The notes under the pieces: model-generated
Told to the model about the DNA's origin: nothing
What the model saw: only the letters and a program-made list of their open reading frames with translations
Database searches by the model: none
In this document: positions 3,175-7,846 of the stretch, one piece after another
Layout: each line of letters begins with the position of its first letter
How positions within the stretch are numbered: the stretch's first letter is position 1
Position numbers and translations under genes: made by a program
DNA from: Pseudomonadota bacterium
GTDB taxonomy: Bacteria > Pseudomonadota > Alphaproteobacteria > Acetobacterales > Acetobacteraceae
Length of the DNA: 14,143 nucleotides
Direction of reading: 5' to 3'
Assembly: GCA_021845835.1 (NCBI GenBank)
Contig: JAJZVE010000047.1
Location: 1-14,143, forward strand

Positions 3175-4197
3175 TCAAGCCGCCCGCACCTGTGCAACCA
3201 GGGCGGCGACATGCTCGGGCGGCGTTGCCGGCAGGATGCCGTGGCCGAGGTTGAACACGTACGGACGGCCCTGCAGCGCTGCCAGGATCGCCGCGGTCTC
3301 CGCCGCCAGCCCGCTGCCGCCTGCCAGCAGCGCCAGCGGATCGAGGTTGCCCTGCAAGGCCACCTGTGGCGGCATCACGGGCAACGCCGCAGCCGGATCG
3401 GCGGCCGTGTCCAGGCCGACACCCTGCACGCCCGTCGTCGTCGCATACGCGCCCAGCATCAACCCGGCCATGCGTGGGAAGCCGATGACCGGCACCTCCG
3501 GATGGCGCTGCCGCAGCGCCGCGACGATGCGTGCGGTCGGGGCGATCACATGCGCCTGGAACTGACGTGGCGGCAGCAGCCCGGCCCAGCTGTCGAACAG
3601 CATGACCGCCTCGGCGCCTGCCTCGATCTGCGCCGAAAGGTAGCGGATCGTCGCCTCGGTCAGCAGTGCGATCAGCCGGCCGAACAACGCCGGGTCGCGC
3701 CAGGCGAGCAGGCGGGCCGCCGGGAAGTCCTTGGTCCCTTCGCCTTCCACCATGTAGCACGCGACGGTGAACGGAGCGCCGGCAAAGCCGATCAGCGTCG
3801 CCTCGCCCACCACCGCGCGCACGCGCCGCACCGTTTCCAGCACCGGTGCGATCGCTCCGGTGAGGCGCGCGAGGTCCAGCCGCGCCAGCGCCGCCGCATC
3901 GCGCAGCGGCGGCAGGCGCGGCCCTTCCCCTTCGGCGAAACACAGGTCCTGACCGAGCGCCCAGGGCAGGATCAGGATGTCGCTGAACAGGATCGCCGCA
4001 TCCATGCCGAAGCGCCGCAACGGCTGCAGCGTCACCTCGGCGGCAAGGGCAGGGGTGGTGCAGAGCGAGACGAAATCCGGCACCTCGGCCCGTATCGCCC
4101 GGTATTCCGGCAGATATCGTCCCGCCTGACGCATCAGCCAGATCGGCGGCGGCCACACCGCCTCGCCCGCCAGCGCCCGCAGCAGTCGCTTCGTCAT
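3175..4197 (-). CDS. hemE: Uroporphyrinogen III decarboxylase
   Basis: This 340-residue cytosolic enzyme removes four carboxyl groups from uroporphyrinogen III to give coproporphyrinogen III. The N-terminal signature PPIWLMRQAGRYLPEYR carries the conserved substrate-contacting arginines R23 and R27. D73 lies in ILFSDIL and coordinates the pyrrole nitrogens in the family. Further on are CYMVEGEGTKDF, with the conserved Tyr, and FNLGHGILPATPPEHV near the C-terminus, with the conserved His. The length is normal. The ATG at 4197 begins MTKRLLRAL as expected. It is the first gene of the leftward haem operon and diverges from the DUF299 gene across a 312-bp gap that resembles a replication origin. 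The hemE promoter should lie in that gap, but I could not place one with confidence. Confidence 0.96.
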   Translation of the reverse strand: MTKRLLRALAGEAVWPPPIWLMRQAGRYLPEYRAIRAEVPDFVSLCTTPALAAEVTLQPLRRFGMDAAILFSDILILPWALGQDLCFAEGEGPRLPPLRDAAALARLDLARLTGAIAPVLETVRRVRAVVGEATLIGFAGAPFTVACYMVEGEGTKDFPAARLLAWRDPALFGRLIALLTEATIRYLSAQIEAGAEAVMLFDSWAGLLPPRQFQAHVIAPTARIVAALRQRHPEVPVIGFPRMAGLMLGAYATTTGVQGVGLDTAADPAAALPVMPPQVALQGNLDPLALLAGGSGLAAETAAILAALQGRPYVFNLGHGILPATPPEHVAALVAQVRAA

Positions 4198-4233
4198 GAC
4201 CAGTCCCGATCCCGTTCTGCGGGGCTTCCTACC

Positions 4234-4252
4234 AGAAAAGGAAAAAAAGAAA
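4234..4252 (+). other. A-rich purine tract, possible DNA unwinding element
   Basis: These nineteen consecutive purines include runs of four and seven A. They lie just inside the hemE side of the candidate origin and 24 bases from the nearest DnaA-like box. Origins usually carry an AT-rich segment that melts first; that role is inferred. On the minus strand it is a T-rich tract in the hemE leader. Confidence 0.4.
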
Positions 4253-4275
4253 CCGGTTGAAGATGTGGTAGGGCC

Positions 4276-4284
4276 TGTGGATAG
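4276..4284 (-). promoter_or_regulatory. DnaA-box-like nonamer
   Basis: TGTGGATAG on the plus strand is CTATCCACA on the minus strand, one mismatch (first base) from TTATCCACA. It lies between the A-rich tract and the second box. DnaA binding is inferred from the match and the hemE-DUF299 context. Confidence 0.55.
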
Positions 4285-4320
4285 CCGGGTACCCCGTTCT
4301 GACGATGCTTGCCGGCCTGG

Positions 4321-4329
4321 TTGTCCACA
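4321..4329 (+). promoter_or_regulatory. DnaA-box-like nonamer
   Basis: TTGTCCACA differs from TTATCCACA at the third base only. It lies 36 bases from the first box and in the opposite orientation. Weaker relatives with TGTCCCC or TATCCCC cores occur at 4375-4383, 4435-4443 and 4485-4493. Confidence 0.55.
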
Positions 4330-4479
4330 AGGGCGTCCGGCGGCAAACAGCGGAGCCGGGCGGCCTGCGCGCGGCTGTCCCCAGCGTGGGGCCGAAGCCG
4401 CTCGCGCCGTCCACCGCTCTGCTTCGCGGGGTGCTTGTCCCCGTAATTCCGCTGGCGGCGATGCGCGGGGGCTGGCGGT

Positions 4480-4497
4480 CCCCGTTATCCCCGTTAT
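4480..4497 (+). repeat. Two tandem copies of a 9-bp unit ending 12 bases before the DUF299 start
   Basis: The unit CCCCGTTAT occurs twice back to back (4480-4488 and 4489-4497). Each copy ends in TTAT followed by CC, so the repeat generates TTATCCCCG and TTATCCTGC, which resemble the left half of DnaA boxes. It occupies the place where a Shine-Dalgarno sequence and leader would be expected. It could be a weak DnaA site array or a transcription-factor site. Confidence 0.5.
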
Positions 4498-4509
4498 CCT
4501 GCTGCCCGC

Positions 4510-5370
4510 ATGTCCAGCCGCATCAATCTGCACCTCGTGTCGGACGCGACCGGCGAGACGCTGAATTCGATCGCGCGTGCGACGGTCGCGCAGTTCGAGC
4601 ACGCGCAGATCATGCACCATCGCTGGAGCCTGATCCGCACCCGTTTCCAGTTGCACCGGGTGCTGGAGGGGATCGAGTCCGAACCCGGCCCGGTGCTCTC
4701 CACGCTGGTCGAGAAGGGATTGCGGGCGGAGCTGGAAACAGCCTGCCAGCGGCTCGGCGTACCGGTCGTGCATGTGCTCGATCCGGTGCTGACGATGCTG
4801 CAGGAACAGTTTGGCGAGACCGCGATGTCGCGGCCGGGCCGGCAATACGTGCTGGATGCCGACTATTTCCGGCGCATCGATGCCATGCATTTCGTGCTCG
4901 CCCACGATGACGGGCAGTCGCAGGCCGGCATCGCGGAGGCGGACGTGGTGCTGGTCGGCGTCTCGCGGTCGTCCAAGACTCCGACCTCCTTCTATCTTGC
5001 CAATCGTGGCATCAAGGCGGCCAATATTCCGCTGGTGCCGAACCTGCCCGAGCCGGATTCGCTCGCCGACGCGCCCTGCCCGGTGATCGGGCTGACGCTG
5101 GAAGCAGAGGCGCTGATCGAGATCCGCCGCCATCGGCTGCGCCTGATCGGTGTCGGGGCCGAAGCACGGATGCGGCACGACAGCAGCGAATACGTGGACC
5201 TCGAGTCGGTGAAGGCGGAACTGCTGTGGTCGCGTCGGCTGTGTACCCGGCGCGGCTGGCCGGTGATCGACGTGACGCGGCGCTCGATCGAGGAGACCGC
5301 CGCGACCGTGCTGCAGCTTATGGAGGCCTGGCACGAACGTCGGCGCAAGGCAGAGGCTGCGCCGTCGTGA
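4510..5370 (+). CDS. ppsR: Bifunctional kinase-pyrophosphorylase (DUF299, PEP synthase/PPDK regulatory protein, RP001 family)
   Basis: This 286-residue cytosolic regulator both phosphorylates (using ADP) and dephosphorylates (using Pi) a threonine on PEP synthase or pyruvate phosphate dikinase, switching the target off and on. The N-terminus [17 protein letters not shown] is the family signature. The P-loop [11 protein letters not shown] spans residues 150-160 with K156, followed by FYLANRG and NIPLVPNLP. The C-terminal signature is [20 protein letters not shown], and the late motif [16 protein letters not shown] is typical. The target cannot be decided because neither ppsA nor ppdK is in the window, so the symbol is provisional. 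The ATG at 4510 gives the expected N-terminus but lacks an evident Shine-Dalgarno sequence. Its TGA overlaps the maf GTG (GTGA). The Rickettsia homologue RP001 and the Caulobacter homologue adjoin the replication origin. Confidence 0.94.
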
Positions 5371-5981
5371 CGGCGTGGCAGGCGCCGACGCCGCCCCTGT
5401 TGCTGGCGAGCGGTTCGGCGGCGCGGCGTGGCGTGCTGCAGCGGGCCGGTCTTGCCTTCTCCGTGCGGGCAGCGGCCATCGACGAGGCGGAGGTGAAGCG
5501 CAGCGCACGCGCCGGTGGCGCTGCGGCGGCGGAAACGGCGGTGTTACTGGCGGAGTTGAAGGCGCAGCGCGTGGCGCGCAGCGACCCGAATGCCCTGGTC
5601 ATCGGCTGTGATCAGTTGCTCGTCTGCGGTGATCGCTGGTTCGACAAGCCGGCCGACACGGCTGCAGCGCGCGCGCAACTGCTGGCATTGCGCGGGCAGA
5701 CGCACGAGCTGGTGACGGCGGTGCTGTGTCAGCGTGGCGGGCAGCGTCTGTGGCACCACGTTGCGCGACCGCGCCTCGTCATGCGGCATTTCAGCGATGT
5801 GTTCCTGGAAGCCTATCTGGCGGCGGAGGGTGATGCCGTGACCGGCACGGTCGGCGCCTACCGGCTGGAAGGGTTGGGCGTGCATCTGTTCGACAGCGTG
5901 CAGGGCGAGTACGCGGCAATCCTCGGACTGCCGTTGCTGCCGTTGCTGGCTTTCCTGCGTCAGCACGGTGTGCTGTTGTGA
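5367..5981 (+). CDS. maf: Maf-like nucleotide pyrophosphatase
   Basis: This 204-residue protein belongs to the Maf/HAM1 fold family, which hydrolyses non-canonical or modified nucleoside triphosphates to monophosphates. Visible are the N-terminal substrate loop [14 protein letters not shown] (residues 11-24), the metal-binding core VIGCDQLL with D82, and K94 in WFDKP. The tail [20 protein letters not shown] followed by [12 protein letters not shown] is typical. The first loop is SGSAARR rather than the commoner S-x-SPRR, and GCDQ replaces the frequent GADT, so substrate choice may differ from model Maf enzymes. The chosen start is the GTG at 5367, which overlaps the upstream stop as GTGA; upstream in-frame codons lie inside the DUF299 gene. 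Its own stop overlaps the GTG of the next gene in the same way, so three genes appear translationally chained. Confidence 0.92.
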
Positions 5982-6736
5982 CGGTGCGGGCGCCGCGTCC
6001 CATTCTCTCGCGTGTTCGGCAGCAGGATGAAGATCCGCTGCTGCCGTTTCTGTGTGACGAGATGCCGCAGCCGGCGCGTGCCGATATTCTCCCGGATTTG
6101 GCCGCGGATGAGAGCGCGCAGCGCCTGCCAGGGACCGCCGCTGCCCGCCCGACCCTCATCGGCACCTTTAACGACGCGGCCGAGCTTCCGTTCTCGCTAC
6201 GCCTCAGGGACTTCGAGATGGCGATGCAGGACGTCTACGACTTCCTTGACGACGTGAACCGCAGCCTCCTGGCCAAGGGCCTCCATCGCATGGATGACAT
6301 GCTGCGCCCGGCGGCGATGTCCGGCATGCTGTCGGATATGCTGACCGCCAGCGTCGCGCGCCATTCGCGCGTGCTGGTGGAGAACCGGCATTTCAACGGC
6401 CATCCTGATCTCGTCGTGCAGGGCAGGTATCCGAACAACGCCGCCGCGTCCGGCGAGCATGGCATCGAGATAAAAAGCACACGCAAGGCGGGCGGCGCGG
6501 TCGATACGCATGGCGCGCGGCGGCAATGGATGTGCGTGTTCGTCTATCGCACCGACCACACCACCGAACCGGCGGAAGCGCGAGCGCCGATGCGTTTCAC
6601 CGAAGTCTATCTGGCGCTGGTTGAGCCGTCAGACTTTCGCCGCAACCCGCGCGGCGAGCTTGGCACCCGCACCGCGACGCTCGACCGGGCGGGCATCCGC
6701 AAGCTGCGCGCCAACTGGATCTACCGCGACCTGTGA
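5978..6736 (+). CDS. PD-(D/E)xK nuclease, probable type II restriction endonuclease
   Basis: This 252-residue protein carries a clear PD-(D/E)xK core. P143-D144 lies in FNGHPDLVVQGRYPN, and E164-I-K166 in HGIEIKSTRK, with a glycine-rich loop between. A helix and E135 (VLVENRHF) precede the core, and the strand RRQWMCVFVYRTD follows it. The family was not recognised beyond the fold, so the endonuclease role rests on this core and on the adjacent convergent DNA methyltransferase gene. The start is the GTG at 5978, whose bases overlap the maf stop (GTGA). An alternative is the ATG at 6062 (residue 29), with a weaker ribosome site. The first 30 codons use more A/T third positions than the neighbours. 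Its 3' end overlaps the methyltransferase gene by 108 bp. A non-restriction nuclease, for example in repair, remains possible. Confidence 0.72.
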   Translation: MTVRAPRPILSRVRQQDEDPLLPFLCDEMPQPARADILPDLAADESAQRLPGTAAARPTLIGTFNDAAELPFSLRLRDFEMAMQDVYDFLDDVNRSLLAKGLHRMDDMLRPAAMSGMLSDMLTASVARHSRVLVENRHFNGHPDLVVQGRYPNNAAASGEHGIEIKSTRKAGGAVDTHGARRQWMCVFVYRTDHTTEPAEARAPMRFTEVYLALVEPSDFRRNPRGELGTRTATLDRAGIRKLRANWIYRDL

Positions 6737-7825
6737 CAGCGCCGGGATGGCGCGCATGGCCAGCCTGACGTAGCGGGCGTCCGCCTCGATGCCGATACTG
6801 GCATGGCCGACCGCATTCGCCGCGGCAAGCGTGGAGCCGGAGCCGGCGAACGGATCGAGGATCACGCCGGTGCCGAGCGGCAGCACGGCGCGCACCAGTT
6901 GGCGCAGGAAGTCCTGCGGTTTCAGCGACGGGTGCGGCGCCAGCAGACGCTCGGATTTCGGCGTCGGCCGCGAGCGGATCACGTCGCCGAACGGCTGTGC
7001 GGCGGACACGCGACGGAATCCGCCGGTCTGCCAGCGGCGCAGCGTGTCCTGCGCGCGTCCGTCGAGCGGCCGGCGCAGCATCACCCAGGGTTCGAACATG
7101 GAACGCGGGATCACGCTTACGTCAGTGAACTCGCGATGTGCGTTCTTCGGCCGGTCGCCGCCACGCATGGTCATCACCAGCCGCACCAGCGTGCCGCGCA
7201 CTTCCAGCCCCGCCTCCGCCATCGCGGCGGCAACGATATGGGCCAGCAGCGGGTTACTGGCGACCAGGATGTTCGCCCCCGGCCGCGCCACGCGCACGAG
7301 CAGCGTGCCAAGCCGGTGGAAGAAGCCGTGCAATGCGGCGAGGTCGTCGCGATCGAGCACGGTGAAGCGCGGCAGCGGCGCGCGGCGATGGCCGTCGAAG
7401 GACGGCGGGATGCGCCACACGCCGCCGCGCCCGGCGCGCAGCTTGCGCTGTTCCTCGGCACTGTATTCCAGCAGGCCATAGGGCGGATCGGTAACGACGG
7501 CATGGATCGAGGCCGGCGGCTGCTGCGCCAGCCACGCGAAGCAGTCGGCATGGAACAGTTGCGCGCCGCCATGCTGCAGCACCGGCGGCAACGGGCGCGG
7601 CGCCGCCGGCGCGACGGCGGCGCCGCGCAGCCGGTAGCGTCCGCGCCCGACCCGCTCGAACACCTCGGGCGTGTTCAGATTGAGGTAGGAACGCACGGAG
7701 GAAGGCGGCACGGCACCAAGCCGGCCGGCGACCGCGGCATGGATCTCCGCCACCGTCGCGGCGGTGCCGAGCACGGCCAGGTAGCCCATCACGACGTCGC
7801 GGATCGCCCCAGGTGCATGGGTCAT
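6629..7825 (-). CDS. Beta-type DNA methyltransferase (N6-adenine or N4-cytosine) with N-terminal winged helix
   Basis: This 398-residue S-adenosylmethionine-dependent DNA amino-methyltransferase has its catalytic motif DPPYGLLEYS (residues 113-122) ahead of the SAM-binding block. The C-terminal order is HPSLKPQDFLRQLVR (298-312), then DPFAGSGST (324-332), then GIEAD (345-349), the beta-class order. DPPY favours adenine-N6. Residues 8-68 look like a winged-helix domain (VAEIHAAVAGRLG and VGRGRYRLRG), perhaps for DNA recognition. The last 35 residues are Ala/Arg-rich and lie in the overlap with the nuclease gene. I chose the ATG at 7825 because AGGGG lies ten bases upstream. The GTG at 7834, three codons earlier, would leave AGGGG only one base away. 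It starts 37 bases after the XRE stop, and a perfect palindrome lies in that gap. It lacks the C-terminal extension of CcrM. Confidence 0.9.
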   Translation of the reverse strand: MTHAPGAIRDVVMGYLAVLGTAATVAEIHAAVAGRLGAVPPSSVRSYLNLNTPEVFERVGRGRYRLRGAAVAPAAPRPLPPVLQHGGAQLFHADCFAWLAQQPPASIHAVVTDPPYGLLEYSAEEQRKLRAGRGGVWRIPPSFDGHRRAPLPRFTVLDRDDLAALHGFFHRLGTLLVRVARPGANILVASNPLLAHIVAAAMAEAGLEVRGTLVRLVMTMRGGDRPKNAHREFTDVSVIPRSMFEPWVMLRRPLDGRAQDTLRRWQTGGFRRVSAAQPFGDVIRSRPTPKSERLLAPHPSLKPQDFLRQLVRAVLPLGTGVILDPFAGSGSTLAAANAVGHASIGIEADARYVRLAMRAIPALSQVAVDPVGAQLADARPVERRGAGAKLAARVAAKV

Positions 7826-7846
7826 GCCGGTCACGCCCCTGTGCGA

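Follow-up and report, generated by a model that had tools for sequence, protein, structure and literature searches.

A probable chromosome replication origin between hemE and ppsR in an Acetobacteraceae genome, with DnaA boxes at conserved spacing in its relatives

The replication origin of Caulobacter, Cori, has GANTC as one of its features, and the oriC of Escherichia coli runs from an unwinding element, T-rich on its upper strand, past box R1, which faces that element, and past IHF to a low-affinity array at the right. Among the Alphaproteobacteria, Caulobacter crescentus and Rickettsia prowazekii have origins linked to hemE and COG1806 (RP001) that carry DnaA, IHF and CtrA sites, as the available parts of one comparison describe (PMC1914354); there, CtrA sites number between zero and seven in Wolbachia and other relatives. 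Sphingopyxis likewise has a hemE-linked origin, in which the boxes are conserved and an unwinding element is present (PMC4741004, available parts). According to the accessible portions of two further papers, Cori combines two moderate DnaA boxes with weak boxes of the TCCCCA type (G- and W-boxes, respectively; PMC4468827, PMC4285127), the consensus being TGATCCACA for the G-box and TCCCCA for the W-box (PMC4285127).

A preliminary description of the window, the whole 14,143-bp stretch of DNA analysed here, had proposed a replication origin between hemE and the DUF299 gene. Our analysis supports that proposal, through conserved boxes, the GC skew of relatives and parS-like sites near hemE, and from sequence comparison we put the probability that the gap at 4198–4509 is the chromosomal oriC at roughly 0.93. 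It would be an origin of the known hemE-linked alphaproteobacterial type, and mostly as expected, an assignment that is well supported: shared with such origins are the flanking genes, the DnaA boxes, an AT-rich unwinding stretch and, in several relatives though not in G170, a place at the skew minimum. The features of the locus are as follows.

3175–4197, minus strand: hemE (uroporphyrinogen decarboxylase), left boundary; Pfam URO-D 388.6 bits, TIGR01464 377.5 bits, above cut-off
4198–4509: predicted oriC, the hemE–ppsR gap, 312 bp
4225–4264: predicted DNA-unwinding element (nearest-neighbour energy), containing the A-rich purine tract
4234–4252: A-rich purine tract AGAAAAGGAAAAAAAGAAA
4271–4295: conserved block around box 1, bordered by a GC spacer toward the unwinding element and by an element resembling GGGGTACC on the other flank
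4276–4284, minus strand: DnaA box 1, CTATCCACA, one mismatch to TTATCCACA
4321–4329, plus strand: DnaA box 2, TTGTCCACA, one mismatch, inverted relative to box 1 and 45 bp from it, start to start
4336–4366: IHF-like position as seen in relatives, degenerate in the window
4378–4383, plus strand: candidate weak box TCCCCA, identical to the Caulobacter W-box consensus
4435–4443, plus strand: candidate weak box TTGTCCCCG, alignment consensus TTATCCCCG
4485–4502, plus strand: candidate tandem abutting weak boxes TTATCCCCG-TTATCCTGC, directly before ppsR
4510–5370, plus strand: ppsR/DUF299 (PPDK/PEP-synthase regulator), right boundary; Pfam Kinase-PPPase 290.8 bits, NF003742 above cut-off

The family matches and the exact bounds of the 312-bp space that separates the divergent hemE and ppsR confirm the flanking pair as first described, with the ppsR product scoring under the cut-off of the narrower PpsR model NF049928. 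Transcription leads away from the gap on both sides, as had also been said: the left has minus-strand genes (hemE, ferrochelatase and a HAD hydrolase), the right has plus-strand genes (ppsR and maf). Rfam returned no match at gathering scores anywhere in the window. Among the best 80 of 553 relatives' loci, ppsR is 84–90% identical to the window's in the top six, which belong to metagenome bins named as Proteobacteria, Alphaproteobacteria and Rhodospirillales and to Limobrevibacterium gyesilva; Acetobacteraceae names are common among the remainder.

From these best 80 of 553 loci we used the 53 with a divergent hemE–ppsR pair and a gap of 250–397 bp, making 54 gaps with the window; the 27 left out of gap counts are 26 without a hemE match and L031, whose gap is 1,241 bp. 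Some of the 53 relatives are near copies of one another (for example L067–L069), so they do not count as independent, and our counts ignore kinship. A DnaA box was taken to be a match to TTATCCACA with at most one mismatch. Twenty-three of the 26 loci without a hemE match have at least 600 bp 5′ of ppsR, among them L078 with a single box; of the three with less than 600 bp, L029 carries an inverted box pair.

By this definition boxes 1 and 2 are the only DnaA boxes in the entire 14,143 bp, inverted and with 36 bp between them exactly as the preliminary description had it, and two boxes were reached in just 2 of 4,000 dinucleotide shuffles of the gap. Conservation across related genomes had been named as a check, and the boxes are indeed kept, with a fixed spacing. 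At least two occur in 35 of the 53 relatives' gaps (from the best 80 of 553), versus 3 of 2,516 tiles, each 312 bp long, taken outside them. In total, the 17,105 bp of the 54 gaps contain 100 boxes and 812,452 bp of surrounding DNA contain 63, window included. At least one box is found in 46 of the 54 gaps and none, at up to one mismatch, in the other eight (again from the best 80 of 553), while 12 of 13 additional hemE–ppsR gaps have at least one, the exception being G095. Wherever a minus-strand box is followed by a plus-strand box less than 96 bp away, as in 28 of the 54 gaps including the window's, the starts of the two are invariably 43, 44 or 45 bp apart.

Set against the origins of Caulobacter, Rickettsia and Sphingopyxis, the boxes of the window are CTATCCACA and TTGTCCACA. 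Their layout is common to many relatives; the available parts of the origin papers cited here yielded no description of it, and in those of PMC1914354 and PMC4741004 we found neither an inverted pair at 43–45 bp nor a GGGGTACC-like element. The box-pair pattern was also tried as a genome-wide origin finder and rejected: in 20 genomes it gave 12 places in ten genomes, nine of them in the hemE–ppsR gap, and the reversed pattern, serving as control, gave 11, so only the location of the matches is informative.

Alignment of the gaps revealed a common order: an A-rich stretch leftmost, then GGGCCTGTGGATA-CGGGGTACC and box 2, then the IHF-like position, TCCCCA, and boxes of the TTATCCCCG type up to ppsR. 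The best-conserved parts include the block around box 1, where the window is one base off the alignment consensus (4271–4295), and the TCCCC positions at the right. We searched for the block in a sample of 199 genomes of the family to which G001 (the genome of locus L006) is assigned, its places being the matches listed. The exact form CCTGTGGATNNNGGGGTACC occurs in 33 of them, once per genome, and the reversed control in none; by eye, and among the matches listed, 31 of the 33 lie at most 200 bp upstream of hemE, and the remaining two are in G161, adjoining ppsR near a contig end, and in G018, on another contig. The G018 match (G018:C110:7101–7120) is, among those listed, the sole exact block away from hemE and ppsR, both of which are on C146 in that genome. 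In the class sample a looser form was present in 5 of 389 genomes, in four of them at most 390 bp upstream of hemE; loci L266 and L267 of that sample (genomes G224 and G321) have CCTGTGGATATCGGGGATCC about 390 bp upstream of hemE, so the block is not confined to the family sample. Because its exact form is absent from 166 of the 199 family genomes and from the window, we regard it as a conserved tendency, not a universal mark. On the lower strand, GGTACCCGG leads directly into CTATCCACA; hence the GGGGTACC element might serve either as a second DnaA site, in tandem, or as the target of another, novel origin-binding protein.

To the left of this block lies the least stable DNA of the window, as judged by nearest-neighbour energy: the window's least stable 20-, 30- and 40-bp stretches all fall inside 4225–4264, and its least stable 50-bp stretch is 4223–4272. 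The 19-nt A-rich purine tract noticed at the outset is present within it, at 4234–4252, and in relatives the region from −50 to −21 relative to box 1 has an A+T content of 62–72%, versus 43% for whole gaps. To the right of box 2, the alignment has the IHF-like motif WATCAANNNNTTR at the same position, exactly in 9 of 53 rows and in 19 of 53 when one mismatch is allowed (0.05 and 0.8, respectively, in shuffles); in the window gap the motif matches, at up to two mismatches, a single time and elsewhere, at 4247. The several TCCCC-core weak boxes that had been suggested correspond to four TCCCC on the plus strand of the gap, at 4378, 4438, 4479 and 4488, with TTATCCCCGTTATCC at the right end (4485–4499). 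TTATCCCCG occurs anywhere in the gap in 41 of the 53 relatives, and TTATCCCCG[CT]TATC in 26 of 53 (from the best 80 of 553).

DnaA-trios, counted as at least three NAN trios within 16 nt of box 1 by a rule simplified from the available parts of PMC8287927, are present at box 1 in 11 of 54 gaps, compared with 8.1 ± 2.6 in shuffles, and absent there in the window. Since they are not enriched, the BUS unwinding system has no sequence support at box 1. The layout otherwise resembles that of E. coli oriC, with an unwinding element, a box facing it, an IHF position and then weak boxes rightward; it differs in the unwinding stretch of the window, whose upper strand is A-rich instead of T-rich. GATC occurs once in 4191–4515.

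Read in this order, the gap suggests how initiation might proceed. DnaA would bind the two stronger, inverted boxes at 4276–4284 and 4321–4329, about four helical turns apart, and the DNA immediately to the right of box 2 would bend, through IHF in relatives and through some other bend in the window's species. DnaA-ATP would then fill the rightward array of TCCCC-type weak boxes, ending at the start of ppsR, and box 1, facing the A-rich tract across the GC spacer, would direct the melting of that tract, which could then serve as the helicase loading place for two forks. DnaA binding, melting and origin activity in the window's organism are thus predictions from the arrangement of sites.

The preliminary description had also remarked that the gap has neither GANTC nor a clear CtrA site, and had concluded that its control would differ from that of Caulobacter. 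Both are in fact absent from the window gap, as TTAA-N7-TTAA and as GANTC, and with the lack of a clear IHF site this sets it apart from the CtrA-gated Cori; what the two share is a pair of moderate boxes with TCCCCA weak boxes, along with GANTC in relatives' gaps, not in the window's. For CtrA the remark needs qualifying, since absence is ordinary: the exact site occurs in one of the 54 gaps (L011) and a loosened pattern in 4 of 54 (from the best 80 of 553), so that its lack in the window is nothing unusual. For GANTC the remark is true of the window and untrue of its relatives, where the motif is enriched. It is present in 43 of the 54 gaps with 109 sites, at 6.4 per kb versus 1.3 per kb outside (from the best 80 of 553), whereas dinucleotide shuffles of the gaps gave 65 ± 7.5 sites and a maximum of 84 in 200 shuffles; the 4.8-fold excess over flanks compares with 0.7- to 2.0-fold for seven control words that match GANTC in letters or in form. 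In 14 of 54 gaps a GANTC starts at column 4353, within the IHF-like position. GANTC is missing from 11 gaps, the window's among them, which makes the window an exception. The enrichment makes GANTC methylation a plausible origin control in the relatives, and if control rests on DNA methylation rather than on CtrA, the window would have lost even GANTC.

GC skew over the complete genome had been proposed as a further check, and we sampled it in five relatives: G113, G171, G132, G052 and G170. The outcome is mixed but largely in favour of the locus. G113, the nearest relative with a complete genome in this set, whose ppsR is 84% identical to that of the window, was sampled by 40 stretches of 20 kb on a contig of 6,482,810 bp, with the gap at about 2.3007–2.3010 Mb. 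Its interpolated cumulative minimum falls in the stretch centred on 2,300,499, which contains the gap, and the step fit stays within 5% of the best at 2.28–2.32 Mb. Far stretches are negative at 0–1.77 Mb and positive at 2.8–5.6 Mb; close to the gap, individual 20-kb stretches differ in sign, and within the one at the gap the sign does not switch (−0.007 left, −0.006 right). The gap of G171 fits the skew no worse than the best origin if 20 kb is allowed. In G132 and G052, where hemE and ppsR have separated, the signal is at hemE. The two genes are 0.88 Mb apart on the 2,859,878-bp contig G132:C1, the best fit is at hemE (2487338–2488378) and much worse at ppsR, and a local minimum at 2,488,500 lies beside the hemE end at 2,488,378; the best origin of G052 is at 1.97–2.01 Mb, with hemE at 1.967 Mb and a local minimum 8 kb from it, ppsR again being much worse. 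G170 offers no support: its best GC-skew origin is at 3.18–3.36 Mb with little contrast, the gap (2.72 Mb) being slightly worse, and the polarity of the GGGNAGGG octamer is best at 2.12–2.32 Mb, data that speak against the gap as origin in that genome. Three split genomes were examined at both genes (G169, G052 and G132), and each has the origin-like block next to hemE, not ppsR, that of G169 without a box within one mismatch; hemE is the partner with which the origin module stays in these three.

These data also bear on the alternative that the real origin lies beside dnaA and that the boxes between hemE and ppsR merely mark a DnaA-regulated divergent promoter. Promoters are to be expected between divergent genes, two published Acetobacter genomes have oriC assigned beside dnaA in the available parts of the reports (PMC3751514, PMC13209655), and in G170 dnaA fits the GGGNAGGG polarity better than the gap does. 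Yet dnaA fits GC skew worse than the gap or hemE in G113 (SSE 0.0267 for dnaA at 1.978 Mb, 0.0190 for the gap, 0.0185 at best), in G171, in G052, where it is much worse, and, with little contrast, in G170 as well; in G132 dnaA (850290–850772) adjoins the skew terminus and admits no origin fit. The surroundings of dnaA in six relatives, about 21 kb, hold a single box in total. Moreover, parS-like sites (at most one mismatch), present in 12 of 15 genomes, are closer to hemE than to dnaA in all 12, the nearest being 7.6–92.6 kb from hemE, with no site less than 62.6 kb from dnaA; G170 has parS 26 kb from hemE, and G113 has a further parS-like site on a different contig. We therefore hold an origin at dnaA to be very improbable. 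The skew and parS evidence comes from relatives, whose origin position it indicates, and it places the window's origin by homology; the 14,143 bp of the window itself contain no parS within three mismatches.

The gap might instead be a conserved relic, the window's species now initiating elsewhere as a Rhodopila-like group appears to do. Loci L036, L044, L046, L049, L051–L061, L063 and L064, Rhodopila and Acidisphaera sp. S103 among them, lack a hemE match near ppsR and have no box in the 600 bp upstream of it, and G003 and G004 have none in the 650 bp upstream of hemE, so that where both genes were inspected the module is at neither. Among the 11 genomes putatively of this group (G003, G004, G155, G586–G592 and G122), the box-pair pattern matched in two and parB at more than 180 bits in seven, parS within one mismatch was found in none, and inspection of seven loci near parB for a variant parS gave nothing convincing. 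The absence of both a hemE-linked core and a canonical parS would point to a change of origin linked to one of segregation control. Loss of the module in relatives such as G003 and G004 thus lends the relic reading some precedent, as do the slight degeneracy of the window's box-1 block and IHF position and its lack of the GANTC common in relatives' gaps. Against it, the window retains both boxes, their spacing, the weak boxes and the unstable tract, and its own cumulative skew has a minimum around the gap, although gene direction alone could produce that. A functional origin in the gap remains our reading, and a relic seems barely credible. A wider scheme for the Acetobacteraceae, in which a core of fixed geometry (boxes at 43–45 bp with GGGGTACC abutting box 1) would be controlled by methylation, not CtrA, and would have undergone the linked change in the Rhodopila-like group, is a tentative proposal that we think rather unlikely to hold as a whole.

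The literature we could search on oriC and hemE in the Acetobacteraceae, with most subscription journals and DoriC outside its scope, offered only Acetobacter, with oriC near dnaA. In the available parts of PMC13209655 that oriC coincides with the skew maximum, with dif about 51 kb away, and looks like a terminus mistaken for an origin. Published Acetobacter origins beside dnaA merit re-inspection, and our results support a rule for the family, acetic-acid bacteria included: the origin should be sought by hemE, not dnaA, even where ppsR has moved. Studies of origin control gain concrete targets in the box geometry and in a GANTC enrichment that comes without CtrA sites. Farther along in the window, 5978–7834 is occupied by a convergent gene pair with a small overlap: the product of 5978–6736 (plus strand) matches no family, and 6629–7834 (minus strand) encodes a DNA methylase (type II methyltransferase model, 353 bits), possibly forming a restriction-modification pair close to the origin.
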